From contig JMRP01000020.1 in NCBI GenBank assembly GCA_000708525.1, forward strand, positions 1 through 49,886: a stretch of DNA of 49,886 nt. The letters are read 5' to 3'. Every line of letters starts with the position of its first letter. Position 1 is the stretch's first letter. Origin of the DNA: Cyanobium sp. CACIAM 14. Lineage in GTDB: Bacteria; Cyanobacteriota; Cyanobacteriia; PCC-6307; Cyanobiaceae. Positions 2,787-13,601 of this stretch are shown piece after piece. The translations under genes and the position numbers were made by a program. The notes under the pieces were generated by a model. It was given only the letters and a program-made list of their open reading frames with translations. It made no database searches and was not told where the DNA came from.

Positions 2787-3593
2787 CTATTCCACGTCGT
2801 CGTGAGCGAAGCGGTTGTAGAGGAAGTCGAGCGCTGTGTTGCGCAGCTCGTAGTACTTCGGATCCTCCATGATGTCCTCGCGGTTGCGGGGGCGCGGGAA
2901 ATCGATGGTCATCACTTCCCCGATCGAGGCTGAGGGGCCGTTGGTCATCATCACCAGACGATCCGCCAGGAAGAGCGCTTCATCGATGTCGTGGGTGATC
3001 ATCAAAACAGTGCACTTCTGGGTGTTCCAGATCTGCAGCAGTTCCACCTGAAGCTCTTCCTTCGTGATCGCATCCAGAGCGCCGAAAGGCTCATCGAGGA
3101 TCAGTACCTCCGGGCGGATGGCCAGGGCACGAGCGATCGCCACCCGCTGCTTCATCCCCCCCGAGAGCTGGGTGATGAGCTTTTCACTCGCTTTCTCAAG
3201 GCCCACCAGGCGCAGGTGCTCCATGGCGATCTCCCGCTTCTCCCGTTCCGGGAGCTTCGGCTTCACCGAATCGATGGCCAGATGGACGTTCTCGTACGCC
3301 GTCATCCAGGGCAGCAGAGCGTAGCCCTGAAACACCACCATCCGGTCAGGGCCAGGCTTCACGACCGGGGCTCCGTTGAGGAGCACCTGACCGGAACTGG
3401 GCGTGGAGAAGCCGGAAACCATGTTGAGCAGGGTGGACTTGCCGCAACCGGAATGGCCGATCACGCAGACGAATTCTCCCTGCATGACCTCGAGATTGAT
3501 TTTCTCGAGAACGCAATAGGGGCCTGTGGGCGTGGGATAGATCTTGCCCAGATCTTCAAAGCGAAGCAGGGGCTGGGTGGTGGTGGTGGTCAT
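2787..3593 (-). CDS. nrtD: Nitrate ABC transporter ATP-binding protein NrtD
   Basis: A 268-aa ABC ATPase, the second NBD of the nitrate/nitrite importer, acting at the cytoplasmic face with NrtC and NrtB. Walker A is GHSGCGKST (about residues 46-54), the signature [15 protein letters not shown], Walker [12 protein letters not shown], and the switch His lies in ITHDIDEA. It closely parallels the N-terminal half of NrtC, including the [10 protein letters not shown] segment typical of the NrtCD/SsuB/TauB group. It starts 23 bases after the nrtC stop and is the last transporter gene. Assignment to nitrate rather than bicarbonate (CmpD) rests on NrtA. Confidence 0.95.
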
Positions 3594-3616: not shown

Positions 3617-5614
3617 TCAGACGCTCAGGGGGCGCGGCAGGCCCAGGGGGATTTCGGCGACGCTGAAATCGCGGTGCACCTTCACATCGTTGAGGTAGCC
3701 GATCGGGTCGTCCGGGTTGAAGGCACGCCCATCGAACAACTCGATGCCCTGGCGCTGGTAGCTCACGTCCTCCAGTCCCAGTTCCCTGGCGGCGGTGCTG
3801 AACACGCTGACGCTGCAGACCCGCTCGAGGATCTCCACATAGTTCCTTGGGAAGGGGATCTCGGCCCAGCGGGCCATCTGGGTGAGGATCCAGAGGTGTT
3901 CGGTGCGGCTGGGACGGTTGAGCCCCGCGCCGAAGAAGAGGTGGTGCGGTTCGCCATGGGGCGCGAACGGGCCCGTCTCACCGGGCTGGCCGCTGAAGCG
4001 GATCAGGTCGGCCTTGATCCCCAGGTAGCGACGGTCGCTCAGCAGCTCGCTCATCTCCGACCAGTGGGCGGGATCGGCGCAGTAGCGGCAGGCTTCCAGC
4101 AGCGCCTTTGTGAGGGCGATGTGGGTGTTGGGGTAGGCCAGGGCCCAGTCTTCCCGTGCCCCCAGCACCTTGCCGGGATGGCCCGGCCAGATCTCCAGAT
4201 CGCCCACGATCGGCACGCCGTGGCCCGTGGTGGCGGCGCGGTAGTTCCAGGGTTCACCGATGCAATAGCCGTCGATGGAGCCGTCCTTGAGGTCGGCGAG
4301 CATCTGGGCCGGCGGCAGCGTCTGCAGGTGCACGTCCTTGTCGGGATCGATGCCGTTGGCCGCCAGCCAGTAACGCAGCAGCAGATTGTGCATCGAGGCC
4401 GGATGGACGATGCCGATCCGGTGCGGCTCCCGTTCGTGACTGCCGAGCCAGGAGCGGTAGGCCTCCACCGTGGTGACACCCTGGTCCGCCAGCCGCTTGG
4501 CCAGGGTCACCTCGTTGCCGTTGCGGCTGAGGGTGAGGGCGGTCACGATCGGCAGGGGATCCCCGCCATGTCCGCCGGCCGTCATCCAGGTGGGCATCCC
4601 CGAGGGCATCATCGCCGCATCGAGCGTCTGGTCCAGCAGACCGTCGACCACCCCCCGCCAGCTGGTCTCCCGGACCAGATGCACCTCATCGAGGCCGTGC
4701 TTGCTGAAGAACCCCTTGGCCTCCGCCACCGCCAGCGGCGCACAGGCGGCCAGGGGGAGGATGCCCAGATCCAGGTTCACCTTCTCCAGGCCATGGCGCG
4801 CCAGGACCTTGTGGGTCTTGGCCTGCCACTGCTTGACCCGTTTCTGACGGTTGAGGAAGTAGATGATCTCCGAGCGCAGGCTGTAGTAGCTCGGGTGGTG
4901 CACCACGGTGAGGCGCTGGCGGGGCCGGGGGATGTCCACCTCGAGGATGCCGCCGATCTTCGAGCCCGGTCCGTTGGTGAGCATCACGATGCGGTCGGAG
5001 AGCAGCACCGCCTCGTCCACGTCGTGCGTCACCATCACCGCGGTGAGCTCATGCTCATTGCAGATCTGCATCAGCTTTTCCTGCAGATTGCCCCGGGTCA
5101 GGGCATCGAGGGCCCCGAAGGGTTCATCCAGCAGGAGCAGCTTGGGTTTGATCGAGAGGGCACGGGCGATGGACACCCGCTGCCGCATCCCTCCGGACAG
5201 CTGTGCCGGCAGTTTGGCCCCGGCCTGGCCGAGTCCGACCATCTCGAGATGCTCGTCGATGATCGCGTCCCGCTCGGCCCTGCCCAGATCGGGCATCACT
5301 TCATCCACCGCCAGGGCGACGTTCTGGCGGACCGTGAGCCAGGGCAGCAGGGAATAGTTCTGGAACACGACCATCCTGTCCGGCCCTGGCCGCTTGATGC
5401 TCTCACCGTCGAGCAGCACAACCCCATCGGTGGGCAGATCGAGCCCGGCGATCATGTTGAGCAGCGTGGACTTGCCACAGCCGGAGTGGCCGATCAGGGA
5501 GATGAATTCCCCCTGGCGGATTTCCAGGTCGATTCCCTTCAGGGCCAGATAGTTGCCCCCGCCGGCAAGGGGAAAATCCTTCTCGATGTTCTGGACATCA
5601 ACCAGTGTCGTCAT
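3617..5614 (-). CDS. nrtC: Nitrate ABC transporter NrtC: ATPase fused to NrtA-like domain
   Basis: A 665-aa protein. Residues 1 to about 255 are an ABC ATPase (Walker [10 protein letters not shown], signature LSGGMRQRVSIARAL, Walker [12 protein letters not shown]). Residues about 275-660 are an NrtA-like solute-binding domain on the cytoplasmic side (LGILPLAACAPLAVAEAKGFF, later IDGYCIGEPWNYRA). In the family, this fused domain mediates ammonium-triggered shut-off of nitrate uptake. Full length and all ATPase motifs are intact. It lies 6 bases downstream of a 52-codon membrane mini-gene and 23 bases upstream of nrtD. The only close alternative, CmpC, is disfavoured by the NrtA binding-pocket sequence. 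Confidence 0.95.
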   Translation of the reverse strand: MTTLVDVQNIEKDFPLAGGGNYLALKGIDLEIRQGEFISLIGHSGCGKSTLLNMIAGLDLPTDGVVLLDGESIKRPGPDRMVVFQNYSLLPWLTVRQNVALAVDEVMPDLGRAERDAIIDEHLEMVGLGQAGAKLPAQLSGGMRQRVSIARALSIKPKLLLLDEPFGALDALTRGNLQEKLMQICNEHELTAVMVTHDVDEAVLLSDRIVMLTNGPGSKIGGILEVDIPRPRQRLTVVHHPSYYSLRSEIIYFLNRQKRVKQWQAKTHKVLARHGLEKVNLDLGILPLAACAPLAVAEAKGFFSKHGLDEVHLVRETSWRGVVDGLLDQTLDAAMMPSGMPTWMTAGGHGGDPLPIVTALTLSRNGNEVTLAKRLADQGVTTVEAYRSWLGSHEREPHRIGIVHPASMHNLLLRYWLAANGIDPDKDVHLQTLPPAQMLADLKDGSIDGYCIGEPWNYRAATTGHGVPIVGDLEIWPGHPGKVLGAREDWALAYPNTHIALTKALLEACRYCADPAHWSEMSELLSDRRYLGIKADLIRFSGQPGETGPFAPHGEPHHLFFGAGLNRPSRTEHLWILTQMARWAEIPFPRNYVEILERVCSVSVFSTAARELGLEDVSYQRQGIELFDGRAFNPDDPIGYLNDVKVHRDFSVAEIPLGLPRPLSV

Positions 5615-5620
5615 GGCGGA

Positions 5621-5779
5621 TCAGTGTCGGGATAGGTAGAGGTAGCTGAAGGCCAGCACCATCATGGTCATCACCAGGAAGCGACCCATCAGGAATCGGA
5701 TCACGTTGCTTCGGTCGCTCATCCAGGCCTCCAATGGGGCCTGCAGCGTACCGATGGTCCTTCTTACGGTGTGAAACAT
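5621..5779 (-). CDS. 52-aa membrane mini-protein inside the nrt operon
   Basis: A short frame from ATG 5779 to TGA 5621 fills the gap between nrtB and nrtC. It starts 16 bases after the nrtB stop and ends 6 bases before the nrtC ATG. A GGAAG Shine-Dalgarno lies about 8 bases before the ATG. The protein opens MFHTVRRTIG, has an amphipathic middle with Trp and Arg, and ends in a Met-rich hydrophobic stretch (LVMTMMVLAFSYLYL) capped by SRH. This is one predicted membrane helix with a basic N-terminal side. I recognise no family. Position, ribosome site and tight packing argue for a real gene, perhaps a small partner of NrtB or the NrtC regulatory domain; that role is inference. Confidence 0.65.
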   Translation of the reverse strand: MFHTVRRTIGTLQAPLEAWMSDRSNVIRFLMGRFLVMTMMVLAFSYLYLSRH

Positions 5780-5794
5780 GATGGCACTTCCGGA

Positions 5795-6628
5795 TCACTG
5801 TCCAGAGGACATGCGCTTCTGGATCCAGAGCATGAGTCGGTCGAGAATCAGACCGATGGCACCGATCCAGATCACGCCGAGCACGATCTCGCCCACATAG
5901 TTCTGCTGGTAGGCATCCCAGATGAAGAAGCCGATGCCAACCGTACCGGGCATCACGATCTCAGCGGCAATGATCGCCAGCCAGGCCAGACCGATGGAAA
6001 TGCGAAGACCCGTGAAGATATAGGGAAGGGCAGAAGGGATCAACACCTTGGTGAAGAAGCGCCGGCTCGACATCTGAAGCACCAGCGCCACGTTGCGGTA
6101 GTCCTGGGGGATCTGGCGCACGCCTTCGGCGGTGTTGATCAGGATCGGCCACACCGCCGTGATGAAGATCACGAAGATCGCGGCCGGCTGGTTCTGCTGG
6201 AAGACGACCAGCGCGATCGGCACCCAGGCCAGGGGCGCCACCATGCGCAGAAACTGGAAGAGAGGGTCGAATGCTCTGTTGATGCTCTGCTTGAGCCCCA
6301 CCGTGATGCCAACGCTGATGCCGATGGCGGCGGCGAGCAGATAGCCCTGGGCCACCCGGCCGAGGCTGGCGAGTGTCTGCCAGAAAAGGCCTTTGTCGAG
6401 GCCGCCGTTGTCGAAGAAGGGATCGAGGATCAGGCTGCGGGTGCGCTCTTCGGTGAACAGGCTGATGGGCCCCGGCAGCTTCAGGATGCCAAGGTTGAAG
6501 AGGACTTGCCAGAGCACGAGGAAGCCGCCGATGCCCAGGACGGGAGGCAGCCAGTTGCCGCGCTGACGAAGCAGCCAGCCCAGTGGACTGGAGGATTTCC
6601 CGGGGCGGCGCTGGGGCGTTGGAACCAT
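5795..6628 (-). CDS. nrtB: Nitrate ABC transporter permease NrtB
   Basis: A 277-aa inner-membrane permease of the BPD_transp_1 family forming the nitrate/nitrite channel. Several membrane helices are visible, beginning WLPPVLGIGGFLVLWQVLF, and an EAA-type loop for ATPase contact occurs around AEGVRQIPQDYRNVALVL. The start at ATG 6628 is chosen because AGGAGA lies about 9 bases upstream. The frame is open for 90 more codons, but that stretch is not permease-like. It is separated from nrtA by about 360 bases containing a perfect hairpin, and is followed by the membrane mini-gene. Confidence 0.95.
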   Translation of the reverse strand: MVPTPQRRPGKSSSPLGWLLRQRGNWLPPVLGIGGFLVLWQVLFNLGILKLPGPISLFTEERTRSLILDPFFDNGGLDKGLFWQTLASLGRVAQGYLLAAAIGISVGITVGLKQSINRAFDPLFQFLRMVAPLAWVPIALVVFQQNQPAAIFVIFITAVWPILINTAEGVRQIPQDYRNVALVLQMSSRRFFTKVLIPSALPYIFTGLRISIGLAWLAIIAAEIVMPGTVGIGFFIWDAYQQNYVGEIVLGVIWIGAIGLILDRLMLWIQKRMSSGQ

Positions 6629-6988: not shown

Positions 6989-8326
6989 TCAGCGCTTGAT
7001 CTTGAGGCTGTTGAGGTAGGCCTCAGGCTTGGCGGGGTCGTAGACCACGCCATCGAAGAATTTCTCCACCCCACGGCTCGAGCCCTTGGGGATGTCCTTG
7101 GCGGGGACGCCCAGTTCCTTGGCGGCCTGCTTCCAGAGATCCTCCCGGGTCACCTGGTCGTTGAGCGCCTTGGCGGCGGCCACGTTGGGGAGCTGGCCGG
7201 GGTAGAACTTCCAGCGGATCGACTCCAGCAGGAACCAGAGGGTGAGGCTCTTGTAGGGATAGGAGATCACGCCACGGGAGCTGTTCCAGTAGAGGGGAGC
7301 CATCGCGGGATTGGTCTCCTTCTGGGCGGTGGTGCCCACCTTGTACCCACCCCTGAGGGCGAGCTCCAGCACCGGCGCAGGAACGTTGAACCACTTCCGG
7401 CTGCTCAGGATCTTGGCGGCCTCCTCCTTGTTGCCGGCCTTGTCGAGCCACTGCTGGGCTTCCATCACCCCCTTGAGCAGGGCGATGGTGGCCTTGGGGT
7501 TCTTCTTCACCCAGTCGGCGCGCACCGCCAGGAACTCCTCAGGATGCACGCGCCAGATGTTGGCCGTGGTGGCCACCATGTAGCCGAACTTCTCCTCCAC
7601 GGCACGGGTGGGCCAGGGATCACCCGTGCTGAACAGTTCCATGGTGCCGTTGCGCAGGCCCGCCACCGTCTCGGCGGCCGGCACCGTCAGCAGTTCGACG
7701 TTGTTGTCGGGGTCCACACCGCCGGCAGCCAGCCAGTAGCGGATCCACATGTCCTGGTTGGCCTTGGGGAAGGTGTAGGCGGCCCGGAACTTCCGCCCCT
7801 TTTCCTTCTCGAACTTCTTGAAGAAGGCACCGTCACCCTTGGTGTTCAGGCCCAGGTCGGCCTTCTTCACATTGTTGGAGGCGACGATGCCGTTGCCCTG
7901 GCTGGAGAGCATGGCCAGGATGTACATCGGCACCTTCTTGCCGTTGGAGATGGCGCCGTTGCTGATCATCTGGGGCATGGGCAGCTGCCACTGGCCACCG
8001 TCGATGCCGCCACCGGCGCTACCGAGCACCACGTTGTCACGGGCGGAGGGCCAGCTCGCCTGCTTGGTGATGTTCACATCGGTGAGGCCATGCTTGGCGA
8101 AGAAGCCCTTCTCCTGGGCGATCACCAGCGGGGCGGCTTCCAGGATGGGGATGTAGCCCAGATTGATGGTCTTGGTCTCCAGGGCGCCGCCTTTCGCGGG
8201 AGCGGCTTTCTTGGGGGCACTCTGGGCCAGCACGCTGGTGAGGGTGCTGGGAATGGCCGCGGTGATCAGGGCGGCGCCGAACAGGCCACCACCCAGCAGG
8301 GAAATGAAGCGACGACGATTGGGCAT
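6989..8326 (-). CDS. nrtA: Nitrate/nitrite-binding protein NrtA
   Basis: A 445-aa solute-binding protein that captures nitrate/nitrite outside the inner membrane and delivers it to NrtB. It begins with a twin-arginine-like signal (NRRRFISLLGGGLFGAALI), suggesting Tat export. The mature part opens INLGYIPILEAAPLVIAQEKGFF. GIDGGQWQLPMP marks NrtA; the bicarbonate protein CmpA has a different sequence here without the Trp. QGNGIVASN also fits NrtA. The start at ATG 8326 places the signal correctly; no clear Shine-Dalgarno. Upstream are a leader hairpin, a promoter-like palindrome and a consensus NtcA box. narB and nirA are not neighbours here. Confidence 0.95.
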   Translation of the reverse strand: MPNRRRFISLLGGGLFGAALITAAIPSTLTSVLAQSAPKKAAPAKGGALETKTINLGYIPILEAAPLVIAQEKGFFAKHGLTDVNITKQASWPSARDNVVLGSAGGGIDGGQWQLPMPQMISNGAISNGKKVPMYILAMLSSQGNGIVASNNVKKADLGLNTKGDGAFFKKFEKEKGRKFRAAYTFPKANQDMWIRYWLAAGGVDPDNNVELLTVPAAETVAGLRNGTMELFSTGDPWPTRAVEEKFGYMVATTANIWRVHPEEFLAVRADWVKKNPKATIALLKGVMEAQQWLDKAGNKEEAAKILSSRKWFNVPAPVLELALRGGYKVGTTAQKETNPAMAPLYWNSSRGVISYPYKSLTLWFLLESIRWKFYPGQLPNVAAAKALNDQVTREDLWKQAAKELGVPAKDIPKGSSRGVEKFFDGVVYDPAKPEAYLNSLKIKR

Positions 8327-8379: not shown

Positions 8380-8402
8380 GGGGCTGTTGAATCAACAGTC
8401 CC
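8380..8402 (-). promoter_or_regulatory. Terminator-like hairpin in the nrtA leader (possible attenuator)
   Basis: Positions 8380-8390 and 8392-8402 form an 11-bp stem (one G-U pair) centred on A8391; the core CTGTTGA-A-TCAACAG is perfectly palindromic. On the minus strand the stem ends in CCCC and is followed by TTATTTTCTG. That is the layout of an intrinsic terminator, 54 bases before the nrtA ATG. It could attenuate transcription into nrtA, or the palindrome could be a protein site. Confidence 0.5.
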
Positions 8403-8570: not shown

Positions 8571-8599
8571 ATTCTTGACATAAGGACTTCTTATGTCAA
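8571..8599 (-). promoter_or_regulatory. Promoter-like element embedded in a 10-bp palindrome
   Basis: TTGACATAAG (8575-8584) is exactly inverted at 8590-8599 with five bases between. Read toward nrtA on the minus strand, TTGACA (8599-8594) is a consensus -35 box. Seventeen bases later AAGAAT (8576-8571) matches four of six -10 positions. The palindrome would cover the promoter core, as a dimeric repressor site would. A start near 8564 gives a leader of about 240 bases with no ATG in it. Confidence 0.45.
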
Positions 8600-8649: not shown

Positions 8650-8663
8650 GTATTCCGAAATAC
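8650..8663 (-). promoter_or_regulatory. Consensus NtcA box upstream of nrtA
   Basis: GTATTCCGAAATAC is an exact GTA-N8-TAC site with symmetric flanks (GTATT...AATAC), the binding motif of the cyanobacterial nitrogen regulator NtcA. It lies 324 bases before the nrtA start and 50 bases upstream of the palindromic promoter-like element. I found no TAN3T -10 box at the usual 22-base spacing on either side, so the precise promoter geometry is unclear. Confidence 0.55.
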
Positions 8664-9173: not shown

Positions 9174-9782
9174 CTAGTCCCTCGCCGCGGTGGCGGTCTC
9201 TTCCCTCAGACCTCCCTGATGCCGCGGCTGATCGGCCCTCTGATAAGGCTCGACATGATGGCCCATGGCGCTCTGTTCGTAGGACTGACGCAATCGTGCC
9301 GACACCTGGGCTTCCGGGTCGACCCCCGCGAACGTGGGCGGCAGCCAGACCCGCACCACCATCAGCAGGGCCATGGTGGCCAGAAACAGACAGACCGCCA
9401 GGATCTGCTGCCATTCGGTCTCCAGGACGCCGCGCACGATCACTTCCCGCAGCACCGAGACGATCGCGATCTCGACCGCCACACCGATCGAGACCCGCTG
9501 CTCCTGCAGATAGATGATCAGCAGGCGGAACAGCTCCACCAGGATCAGGATGAACAGGAAATCGGCGGTGACCTCGTGAAATTCCGACGAGGAAAGGAGG
9601 GTGGAGAAGGTGCGTTTCAGCTGCAGCACCATCACGCCGAACAGCCCAAGACAGAGGGAGATGGCGATCAGGTCCTGAACCGCTTCGAGAGCCTGGACGA
9701 TCTGGGCGCGACGCAGCTGCTGGTGCCAGGGCACGAACTCATGGATTTCGGAAACCGGCTTTCTGGTGGGCTGGAGGTTCAT
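9174..9782 (-). CDS. PsiE-family (phosphate-starvation-inducible E) membrane protein
   Basis: A 202-aa membrane protein with four predicted helices: LIAISLCLGLFGVMVL, FLFILILVELFRLLIIYL, VEIAIVSVLREVIV and ILAVCLFLATMALLMVV. The block FILILVELFRLLIIYLQEQ followed by VAVEIAIVSVLREV is the PsiE family pattern. In Escherichia coli the family is linked to phosphate starvation, but its biochemical role is unknown. The C-terminal 50 residues are polar and unusual. Its start overlaps the end of the upstream regulator gene by 44 bases, so the pair is almost certainly co-transcribed. Confidence 0.85.
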   Translation of the reverse strand: MNLQPTRKPVSEIHEFVPWHQQLRRAQIVQALEAVQDLIAISLCLGLFGVMVLQLKRTFSTLLSSSEFHEVTADFLFILILVELFRLLIIYLQEQRVSIGVAVEIAIVSVLREVIVRGVLETEWQQILAVCLFLATMALLMVVRVWLPPTFAGVDPEAQVSARLRQSYEQSAMGHHVEPYQRADQPRHQGGLREETATAARD

Positions 9783-10407
9783 GGCGGAGGGTTCGCGGGA
9801 ATTGCAGCGAGGAAACCGAGAGGGGAGCGGGGAAGGTCGGAACGGTGCTGAGGCAGGCGGCGCGGGGGACCATCAGGTCGGCTTCGTTGACCTTGACGAT
9901 CAGCCCTTTGCTGCGGAAGCGGGTGAGGGACTTGGTGACCGTGACCCGGGTCATGCCGGCGATGTCTGCCAGGTGGCGATGGGTCAGGCACATATCCTCC
10001 AGGGAGAGGGTGGTGCCACTGCTGCTGACCCGACCGAAGCGGCCACCGATCCAGTGCAGCAGACGCAGCAGACGGGCATCGGCGGGCCTGATCCGGTGGA
10101 TCTGCAGCAACTCGGAGGTCTGGGTGAACAGGTCGCGCATGAAATCCAGGATCTCCCCTTCGCTGGGATCGCATTCCTCCACCACCACCCGGGTGAGGGA
10201 AATGAGTTCGTAGGGCTTCACTCCGCAGCCAGTCGGTGTGATCAGCTCGCCCGGCCCCCAGATGCCGAGGGTGATGGATTCCCCTTCCTCATTCCAGGTG
10301 TTCGCCCGGATGTAGCCATCGTCGATGCGCCAGCTCAGATCCGCCGGCAGGTGATCATCGGCGCGCAGGCTGAGGCGGAGCGGGCGGGCGGGCATGGCGA
10401 CGGACAT
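9739..10407 (-). CDS. CRP/FNR-family transcriptional regulator
   Basis: A 222-aa regulator. The N-terminal part reads like the beta-barrel effector domain of the CRP family (WRIDDGYIRANTWNEEGES, then LGIWGPGELI). Residues about 140-185 form the winged helix-turn-helix (LTHRHLADIAGMTRVTVTKSL). This recognition-helix style is close to, but distinct from, NtcA; the core GxTRVTVTxxL is shared. The canonical cAMP-binding residues are not evident. A Pro-rich tail runs 44 bases into the psiE-like gene. Given the nearby nrt operon and NtcA box, a role in nutrient control is plausible but unproven. ATG 10395 is an alternative start. Confidence 0.88.
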   Translation of the reverse strand: MSVAMPARPLRLSLRADDHLPADLSWRIDDGYIRANTWNEEGESITLGIWGPGELITPTGCGVKPYELISLTRVVVEECDPSEGEILDFMRDLFTQTSELLQIHRIRPADARLLRLLHWIGGRFGRVSSSGTTLSLEDMCLTHRHLADIAGMTRVTVTKSLTRFRSKGLIVKVNEADLMVPRAACLSTVPTFPAPLSVSSLQFPRTLRHEPPAHQKAGFRNP

Positions 10408-11667: not shown

Positions 11668-11780
11668 GACCCCGGCAGGTTATGGGCCCGATCATCAACG
11701 CCTATCGGCGAAGATGCCCAGCACTCCGTCACCCTCCTTAGCGTCGATTGCGACCACCCTGCCATGGGAGTTTCGATCCG

Positions 11781-13601
11781 ATGCCTGCAACTGCACAACC
11801 CGGATCTTTGCGCGTGGAAAGCCTGCTCCAGCAGGCGGAGAAACAACGATCCGCATCACCCGAGTCCTCCCTGGAAGCTCCTGCAGGACGCCTTTCCCTG
11901 CAGTGTGAGCAGGTAGCCGCCGATACCACGACCCTGCGATCTCTCGACTGGGACCGGAGCCGCTTCGACATCGAGTTCGGCCTTCGCAACGGCACCACCT
12001 ACAACGCCTTTCTCGTGGCCGGCGAACGCCGGGCCCTGGTGGACACCAGCCATGCGAAGTTCCGTCGGATCTGGCTGGAGCTGCTGCAGTCCTGCAGCGA
12101 TCCTCGCAGCATCGATCATCTGATCGTTTCCCATACCGAACCTGACCATTCCGGCCTGATCGGTGATGTGCTGGATCTCCATCCCGAGATCGAGATCATC
12201 GGCTCGAAGGTGGCGATTCAGTTCCTGGAGCATCAGCTGCACCGCCCCTTCCGCCACCGCGTGGTGAAGACCGGAGAGCGCCTCGATCTCGGCAGGAACC
12301 CGGAGTCCGGCGTGCAGCATGAACTGGAGTTCCTGAGTGCCCCGAATCTGCACTGGCCGGACACGATCTTCAGCTTCGACCACGGCACCGGCACCCTCTT
12401 CACCTGCGATGCCTTCGGTCTGCACTACTGCTCCGACGACCTCTTCGATGAGGACCCCGGTGCGATCGCTCCCGATTTCCGCTTCTACTACGACTGCCTG
12501 ATGGGTCCCAATGCCCGCAGCGTGCTGCAGGCCCTGAAGCGGCTGGAGGCCCTGCCGCCGATCACCACCATCGCCACCGGCCATGGTCCGCTGCTGCGGC
12601 ATCACATCGATCACTGGCTGGGGGATTACCGCGAGTGGAGCCAGGCCCGCAGCGGCAGCGAGACCTACGCCGCGGTCTGCTACCTCAGCCAGCACGGCTT
12701 CTGCGACCGGGTCAGCCAGGCCATCGCCCGCGGCATCGGCAAGTCGGGAGCCCAGGTCCAGATGGTGGATCTGCGCTCCACCGATGCCCAGGAACTGGCA
12801 GCCCTGATCGGCGAAGCGGCGGCCGTGGTGGTGCCCACCTGGCCGGTGGAGCCAGAGCCGGACCTGCAGGCGGCGATCGGCACCCTGCTGGCGGCTCTGC
12901 GGCCGACCCAGTGGCTGGGCTGCTACGAGGCCCTCGGTCGCCAGGATGAACCCCTCTACGGCATTGCCAGCCGCTTGCGGTCCCTCGGCCTGCAGGAGGG
13001 GTTCGCCCCGCTCAGGCTCGCGCGGGTTCCGGATGCCGGCGATGTGCAGCGCTGCGAGGAGGCCGGCACGGACCTCGGGCTGCTGCTCACCCGGGACCGC
13101 ACCATCGCCGCGATGAAAGCCCTCGATGGCGATCTGGATCGCGCCCTGGGCCGGCTCAGCGGCGGCCTTTATGTCGTCACCGCCGCCCAGCCCGACCGCA
13201 GTGGAGCGATGGTGGCCAGCTGGGTCAGTCAGGCCAGTTACGAGCCGCCGTCCCTGACGGTCGCCGTGGCCAGGGAGCGGGCCATCGAGGCCCTCATGCA
13301 GGTGGGCGACCGCTTTGTGCTCAACGTGCTGCGGCAGGACAACCACCAGCTCCTGCTGCGCCATTTCCTGAAGCGTTTTCCTCCGGGCGCCGATCGCTTC
13401 GCCGGGATCGCCGTGCTGGAGGGGGTGGCGGCCGGGGGGCCCGTGCTGGCCGAGGCCCTGGCCTACCTGGGCTGCCGGGTGACCCAGCGGCTCGAGACCG
13501 CCGACCACTGGATCGTGGTCGCCGAGGTGGAGGAGGGCAGCGTCTCCGACACCGAAGCCGCCACGGCCGTGCATCACCGCAAATTCGGCAACCACTACTG
13601 A
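11781..13601 (+). CDS. flv3: Flavodiiron protein Flv3
   Basis: A 606-aa soluble enzyme that, with Flv1, uses photosystem I electrons to reduce oxygen to water (Mehler-like reaction), protecting against light fluctuation. It contains a metallo-beta-lactamase domain with iron ligands in SHTEPDHSG (H118, E120, D122, H123), then NLHWPDTIF and CDAFGLHYCSD, a flavodoxin domain (about 260-400), and the cyanobacterial C-terminal flavin reductase domain (DKALG-like RALGRLSGGLYVVTA). The intact ligands identify Flv3 rather than Flv1. ATG 11781 is preferred over the open frame upstream because conserved sequence begins soon after. The flv1 gene follows 14 bases later. Confidence 0.95.
   Translation: MPATAQPGSLRVESLLQQAEKQRSASPESSLEAPAGRLSLQCEQVAADTTTLRSLDWDRSRFDIEFGLRNGTTYNAFLVAGERRALVDTSHAKFRRIWLELLQSCSDPRSIDHLIVSHTEPDHSGLIGDVLDLHPEIEIIGSKVAIQFLEHQLHRPFRHRVVKTGERLDLGRNPESGVQHELEFLSAPNLHWPDTIFSFDHGTGTLFTCDAFGLHYCSDDLFDEDPGAIAPDFRFYYDCLMGPNARSVLQALKRLEALPPITTIATGHGPLLRHHIDHWLGDYREWSQARSGSETYAAVCYLSQHGFCDRVSQAIARGIGKSGAQVQMVDLRSTDAQELAALIGEAAAVVVPTWPVEPEPDLQAAIGTLLAALRPTQWLGCYEALGRQDEPLYGIASRLRSLGLQEGFAPLRLARVPDAGDVQRCEEAGTDLGLLLTRDRTIAAMKALDGDLDRALGRLSGGLYVVTAAQPDRSGAMVASWVSQASYEPPSLTVAVARERAIEALMQVGDRFVLNVLRQDNHQLLLRHFLKRFPPGADRFAGIAVLEGVAAGGPVLAEALAYLGCRVTQRLETADHWIVVAEVEEGSVSDTEAATAVHHRKFGNHY

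Follow-up and report, generated by a model that had tools for sequence, protein, structure and literature searches.

The 49,886-nucleotide stretch of Cyanobium sp. CACIAM 14 DNA analysed here (assembly GCA_000708525.1, contig JMRP01000020.1; hereafter the window) contains an ABC importer operon in which a short open frame lies between the permease and ATPase genes. The locus raises two questions: whether this frame is a gene, and which transporter its product might serve. The frame has 52 codons, runs from ATG to TGA at positions 5621–5779 on the minus strand, and would encode MFHTVRRTIGTLQAPLEAWMSDRSNVIRFLMGRFLVMTMMVLAFSYLYLSRH, a product with 6 Met among its 52 residues and a single hydrophobic stretch. 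A possible ribosome-binding site read from the sequence, GGAAG (5787–5791, minus strand), lies 7 bases before the ATG; it is kept in some homologues but not in all. An earlier sequence-only reading had described these features, a short frame filling the permease–ATPase gap with a GGAAG site and a Met-rich hydrophobic helix, and we find them as described. The 6 bases that it placed before the ATPase gene are also correct (5615–5620), but the distance from the permease stop is 15 bases (5780–5794) and not 16. When the 180-base gap was shuffled 5000 times with dinucleotides preserved, 46 of the shuffled versions also held a closed ATG frame of at least 52 codons. The size of the frame is thus only mildly unusual by chance, and the case for a gene, to which we give the working name cmpX, rests on its relatives and their conservation.

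The sequence-only reading named the flanking genes nrtB and nrtC and the importer a nitrate transporter, and these names proved to be wrong. The binding-protein gene (6989–8326, minus strand; the start was taken as the ATG at 8326, and the listed frame begins with a TTG at 8395) scores 532.7 bits against CmpA (2i48) versus 396.2 against NrtA (2g29). The permease gene (5795–6628, minus strand; the start was taken as the ATG at 6628, and the open frame extends to 6898) matches TIGR01183 and scores 371.3 bits against CmpB (9u9z) versus 279 against NrtB (8w9m), and CmpB chains rank first in a fold search with its model (9u9z, 9ua1, 9ua0). Beyond cmpX lie an ATPase gene with a C-terminal binding-protein-like regulatory domain (cmpC, 3617–5614, minus strand; TIGR01184, ABC_tran and NMT1_2 domains) and a further ATPase gene, assigned as cmpD (2787–3593, minus strand) from its TIGR01184 match and its position after cmpC. 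Matches to cmpC in other families of the phylum form one group at 65–72% identity and a second at 56–59%. The strings TFPKANQD and HPEE occur in the window binding protein, and TFPGGTHD and HPEK in that of a second operon of the genome; we take NQD/HPEE to be the CmpA signature and THD/HPEK the NrtA signature, at positions that presumably matter for substrate choice.

This second operon, on another contig (G000:C24, locus L091), gives the reverse result, its binding protein scoring 485.9 bits against NrtA versus 362.8 against CmpA. It sits between fragments that match ferredoxin-nitrite reductase (nirA-like) and assimilatory nitrate reductase, both of which are cut by the ends of the locus and hence fall below curated cut-offs. 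The flanks of the window operon hold a DUF1400 gene on one side, and PsiE-family and Crp-family genes, with no nirA/narB neighbourhood. TIGR01183, the nitrate-permease model, scores both permease paralogues of the genome above its cut-off and may be the source of the nrt naming. Judged by these comparisons, the window operon is cmpABCD, encoding the bicarbonate importer BCT1, and not nrtABCD.

A search through 201 family genomes returned five same-genus homologues of cmpX (E 7.2e-12 to 2.8e-9), all in the same gap. With a profile built from ten early members, which match it by construction, a search of 400 family genomes gave matches at E 8e-8 or better in 32 genomes, and the homologues range from 49 to 63 residues. 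Across 12 pairs, which were hand-chosen and are not all mutually independent, there are 191 amino-acid differences, compared with 268.6 ± 7.3 expected when the same base changes are placed randomly; none of 5000 random trials was as low. Ten of the pairs are individually below 0.05, and two are not significant alone. In six groups, from which locus L044 was left out, pN/pS is 0.18–0.53 in the true frame, compared with 0.41–1.37 and 1.33–7.59 in the two shifted frames; the low value of 0.41 comes from one shifted frame in one small group. Close relatives thus keep the frame in homologous gaps, and changes within it are biased towards synonymous ones, the two features that the sequence-only reading had proposed to check. 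A chance frame is ruled out by this retention with coding bias, and the comparisons establish cmpX, at the level of sequence, as a genuine, conserved protein-coding gene kept by selection as a protein.

None of 20 members of the cmpX family has a credible match in Pfam or NCBIfam (best E 0.059 and 0.045), a PDB sequence search found no credible relative (one match, E 3.5), and Rfam has no match in the window. Phages and plasmids gave no match to cmpX, and among viral contigs none was confirmed. Across 386 genomes of the phylum we found no credible homologue outside the family. Three weak matches there (E 3e-4 to 0.008), two of which contain stops, were set aside when the surrounding frames were read and none resembled cmpX. 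A 150-genome search gave three more weak matches (E 0.006–0.010), which lie inside 425-codon frames of another genus of the family. In the literature searched, which excluded subscription papers and preprints, we found no report of a small gene within a cmp operon.

We then asked where the gene occurs. Among 49 cmp-type loci, cmpX lies in the cmpB–cmpC gap in 27 and upstream of cmpA in 4, a total of 31; in 17 it is missing from the piece retrieved, and the remaining locus is interrupted by a contig end. These counts include one locus in which the position was read separately (G111, among the 27) and one in which the region upstream of cmpB is off the contig (G212, among the 17), and they leave out L044/L097 (a remnant in G286) and L098 (the second contig end of G111). 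The classification covers the counted loci, a selection among the permease matches listed. None of 14 nrt-type loci carries the gene. Named strains with cmpX include Cyanobium sp. N.Huapi 1H5, Synechococcus sp. BO 8801 and CCY 9618. Resolved cmpB–cmpC gaps measure 132–299 bases with cmpX and 25–121 bases without it, and 38–165 bases in the four genomes with an upstream copy.

Of 42 genomes sampled in the window's genus, 23 have cmpX, 22 of them between cmpB and cmpC. The remaining carrier, G286, retains it next to what seems to be just the end of cmpB, after a deletion. A full-length window-type cmpC is absent from G286 and from all 19 genus genomes without cmpX. In one of these 19 (L148, G352:C63), a deletion within the cmp operon brings cmpB and cmpC together and takes out the gap, and cmpX with it. 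Within these limits, and with some of the sampled genomes incomplete, the gene and the cmp operon go together in this genus. The linkage also survived relocation: in four Vulcanococcus-like genomes cmpX lies 0.3–1.1 kb upstream of cmpA. One of these, G200, has in addition to its intact upstream copy a shortened stretch, still in frame, in the original cmpB–cmpC gap (L093 7221–7307, minus strand), which resembles both ends of the small protein without the helix; its profile E value is only 0.19, and by eye it looks like a decayed copy of cmpX. All four relocated-gene loci (L093–L096) also carry, by eye, a recurring CTAACGTT or CTAGCGTT string between cmpX and cmpA, a possible shared regulatory site.

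Outside the family, 0 of 29 resolved cmpB–cmpC gaps of other cyanobacteria contain a cmpX homologue (best profile E 2.4). These were drawn from the best 30 loci of a longer match list plus 5 named ones; for 4 further loci the piece retrieved did not include cmpB, and the permease of one of the 29 (L167) scored closer to NrtB. From these comparisons of loci we regard it as established that cmpX is tied to cmp and not to nrt, and it has been found only in this lineage so far. Two observations concern the records themselves. A contig whose title names a Bifidobacterium breve bin (L119, CALPNT020000019.1) holds a picocyanobacterial cmp operon with cmpX, and its title or bin is probably wrong. The cmpB of L103 (6983–7825; G005:C31) has one internal stop (TGA), from assembly error or decay.

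The history of the gene was read from trees of its neighbours. In a cmpC tree of 51 rows (43 different), cmpX is present in several early picocyanobacterial branches, with modest support for the deepest forks. It is absent from a fully supported 14-row clade with cmp operons (Synechococcus WH 5701, RedBA-s and others) and from part of the Vulcanococcus group. This pattern looks like a lineage-specific addition, followed by loss in some clades and by relocation to a site upstream of cmpA in others. Most simply read, cmpX arose in the picocyanobacterial line after operon transfer, although the outgroup sample is finite and a donor that carried the gene could be missed. Since it is missing from a clade with cmp operons and from 29 of 29 gaps elsewhere, cmpX is, on this distribution, dispensable. 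On the same 34 rows, its presence requires 4 changes on the CmpC tree versus 7 each on the CmpA and CmpB trees, which argues that cmpX travels with cmpC; physical linkage alone may account for the agreement. The CmpB proteins of the window, CCY 0621 and UBA5018 group with those of operons that lack the gene, whereas their CmpC proteins do not. By this tree evidence the cmpX protein must tolerate CmpB of different origin, and the trees lend no support to a tight, CmpB-specific fit.

What kind of protein is encoded? A transmembrane helix is predicted at residues 29–48 or thereabouts (limits set by eye; 5636–5695, minus strand), with a conservation periodicity of 98–100 degrees and AlphaFold2 pLDDT of 88–94. 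Over residues 26–46, the helical moment of conservation is 9.15, versus 3.25 in shuffles that ignore relatedness among the sequences (P 0.0003), and it peaks at 98 degrees. The conserved face begins just before the helix and comprises V26, F29, L30, R33, position 36 (L in most homologues, V in the window), M37, M40 and F44; F29, L30, R33 and M40 are invariant in 30 aligned sequences, about 20 of them effectively different. AlphaFold2 returned one long helix, with block pLDDT of 94 for residues 31–40 and 88 for 41–50, a mean of 73 and a pTM of 0.40. In 30 of 30 homologues, K and R are more numerous before the helix than after it, and net charge favours the N side in 22 of the 30, with 5 ties. 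From the K+R excess the N-terminus is probably cytoplasmic, a topology that we infer.

We also looked for signs of a contact. When CmpB and cmpX were modelled as one joined chain, the CmpB fold was close to 9u9z (67–68% identity to the solved chains), and the small protein, at block pLDDT 45–64, had no confident placement; the model supports no defined contact. A search for CmpB and CmpC residues that track the presence of cmpX found changes that looked like clade markers; in CmpB, no acidic residue emerged as a partner for R33. One alignment in which the small-protein rows were left free placed them wrongly, on the permease, and was dropped.

Upstream of cmpA, a sigma-70-like promoter, TTGACA-17-AAGAAT (8571–8599, minus strand), is weak as a prediction, being the one found in the scanned region where shuffles gave a mean of 0.8. 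About 50 bases upstream of its first hexamer lies a GTA-N8-TAC palindrome (8650–8663) of the Crp/NtcA operator type, one of 3 exact matches in the window, against a mean of 0.15 in shuffles. It occurs upstream of cmpA in only some relatives and is not general; it may be a site for NtcA or for the Crp-family regulator encoded nearby. No CmpR-type TTA-N7/8-TAA motif was found upstream of cmpA in 16 picocyanobacterial loci scanned. The genes that precede cmpA include a PsiE-family gene (9174–9782) and a Crp-family regulator gene (9739–10407; a weak PtrA match, far below cut-off). In 43 scanned loci (38 named and 5 unnamed, with some genomes present twice), a Crp match was found in 16 and a PsiE match, not always beside cmpA, in 15. 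In the Vulcanococcus-like locus L096, a Crp gene lies between cmpX and cmpA. A Crp-type regulator may control cmp here. A flavodiiron-type gene is also present near the operon (11748–13601), with flavorubredoxin-like and flavin-reductase-like matches below their cut-offs.

The sequence-only reading suspected an overlooked small membrane protein that partners an ABC importer, and in this respect the data bear it out: cmpX is a conserved gene for such a protein, tied genetically to one ABC importer, and at the gene level a small partner of this importer appears well supported. As to its role, we propose that cmpX encodes a single-pass membrane accessory subunit of BCT1 that would sit beside CmpB and stabilise or gate the complex, with a probability that we put at roughly two in three. 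The N-terminal half, which carries nearly all of the positive charge, would probably lie on the cytoplasmic side, and the C-terminal helix would cross the membrane and turn its conserved face (F29, L30, R33, position 36, M37, M40, F44) towards another protein. A stripe of conserved residues that includes an invariant arginine, within the membrane or close to it, leads us to expect a helix packed on protein and not floating in lipid, and the stripe together with the operon linkage would make CmpB, within the assembled CmpBCD complex, the likeliest partner. By stabilising or gating BCT1, the subunit would tune bicarbonate uptake or leak, and the effect could be of either sign, activating or inhibiting.

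Other roles can be envisaged for the frame or its product. The suggestion of the sequence-only reading, that cmpX serves the nitrate transporter NrtABCD as a subunit or regulator, is scarcely credible. Its appeal lies in the paralogy of the cmp and nrt operons, whose permeases both exceed the TIGR01183 cut-off, but the window proteins fit CmpA and CmpB better, the scores are reversed in the operon beside the nirA-like and nitrate-reductase-like genes, and cmpX is missing from that operon as from every other nrt-type locus counted; we therefore rejected it. The frame might instead act through its translation, as a coupler or leader that sets the CmpB:CmpC ratio, with a peptide that has no role of its own. 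Spacings of 15 and 6 bases would suit coupling, and engineering of BCT1, as described in PMC11349869, suggests that subunit stoichiometry matters. Constraint on the amino-acid sequence, concentrated on one conserved helix face, argues against such a device, as do the four genomes that keep cmpX upstream of cmpA, where coupling of cmpB to cmpC is impossible, and we judge it very unlikely.

Nor need a small protein act on the product of an adjacent gene: the targets of SgrT, MgtS and MntS are not known to be products of neighbouring genes. The cmpX protein might similarly have its target elsewhere in the membrane (SbtA, BicA or a general stress system, for instance) and share nothing with BCT1 but the operon. 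Its occurrence with CmpB of different origins would fit this, as would the example of SgrT, MgtS and MntS, small proteins covered in PMC10710835. In the sampled genus, however, no genome has cmpX without a cmp operon or its apparent remains, and the gene stays near cmp after relocation, which makes action elsewhere quite unlikely. Binding mainly to the ATPase side, CmpC with its regulatory domain, is a real if unlikely possibility. Here the protein would relay a nitrogen or carbon signal to the transporter, and a tie to the regulatory domain of the ATPase was also raised by the sequence-only reading. The presence of cmpX follows the cmpC tree better than those of cmpA or cmpB, and PMC13249358 reports nitrate sensing by the CmpC regulatory domain and binding of SbtB to CmpC. 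The 6-base linkage to cmpC explains the tree signal equally well, however, and the most conserved part of the protein is the predicted membrane helix and not the N-terminal segment.

A membrane accessory subunit of BCT1 would join a class that is already known, small membrane proteins which modulate transporters, and cmpX, at 49–63 residues with one predicted helix, fits the short one-helix form. The host complex type is that of PDB 9u9z, 9ua0 and 9ua1, cyanobacterial CmpBCD with chains named CmpB and CmpC. The nearest likeness by description, with no kinship implied, is SbtC, a small protein of the SbtA/SbtB bicarbonate uptake system of Synechocystis (Walke et al. 2026, as related in PMC13360264 and PMC13249358). 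PMC13360264 places its frame upstream of sbtA and sbtB and reports that SbtC migrates together with SbtA and SbtB, inhibits the uptake that depends on SbtA and limits leakage in the dark; PMC13249358 differs in suggesting that SbtC may be required for efficient uptake. Like SbtC as portrayed there, cmpX is a previously unannotated small frame in a bicarbonate-transporter cluster, has a predicted membrane helix and is patchy among cyanobacteria. SbtC is linked to sbtA/sbtB, on their upstream side, whereas cmpX in the loci examined lies in cmp operons or upstream of cmpA, within or beside an ABC-importer operon of picocyanobacteria, and not upstream of sbtA/sbtB.

Further precedents appear in PMC10710835. 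AcrZ (49 residues), MntS (42), MgtS (31) and SgrT are E. coli small modulators of transporters, and LucB, for which a role in regulation has been proposed, is a small, conserved transmembrane protein belonging to a mycobacterial ABC transporter that takes up lipids. The cmpX product resembles the former in being very small, and they bind or regulate a transporter; their partners belong to different transporter classes, and the cmpX family has no credible Pfam or NCBIfam match. With LucB it shares the form of a conserved small transmembrane protein associated with an uptake ABC transporter and a proposed regulatory role, in a different phylum and with a different transporter. By analogy, cmpX may act on BCT1 in the way described or proposed for SbtC on SbtA and for AcrZ and LucB on their transporters.

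A 2026 review names BCT1 as one of three bicarbonate importers. It is also a target of crop engineering, and in PMC13249358 and PMC11349869 the native importer is reported to be inactive in E. coli and its control incompletely understood. A conserved, lineage-specific extra gene in its operon offers a small, deletable handle on that control, just as SbtC is coming to light for a second high-affinity importer. The operon is also easily misnamed nrt, given that TIGR01183 is above cut-off for both paralogues of this genome. Tentatively, and with more doubt than conviction, we suggest that alpha-cyanobacteria took the BCT1 operon from beta-cyanobacteria and that a new membrane microprotein in the cmpB–cmpC gap became a fifth, regulatory subunit, which would supply control that the imported complex needed, for example by shutting the pump in darkness or when nitrogen is in excess, and which some lineages later lost or re-sited. 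In picocyanobacteria, cmpX may be a case of a transferred importer operon gaining a new membrane microprotein.
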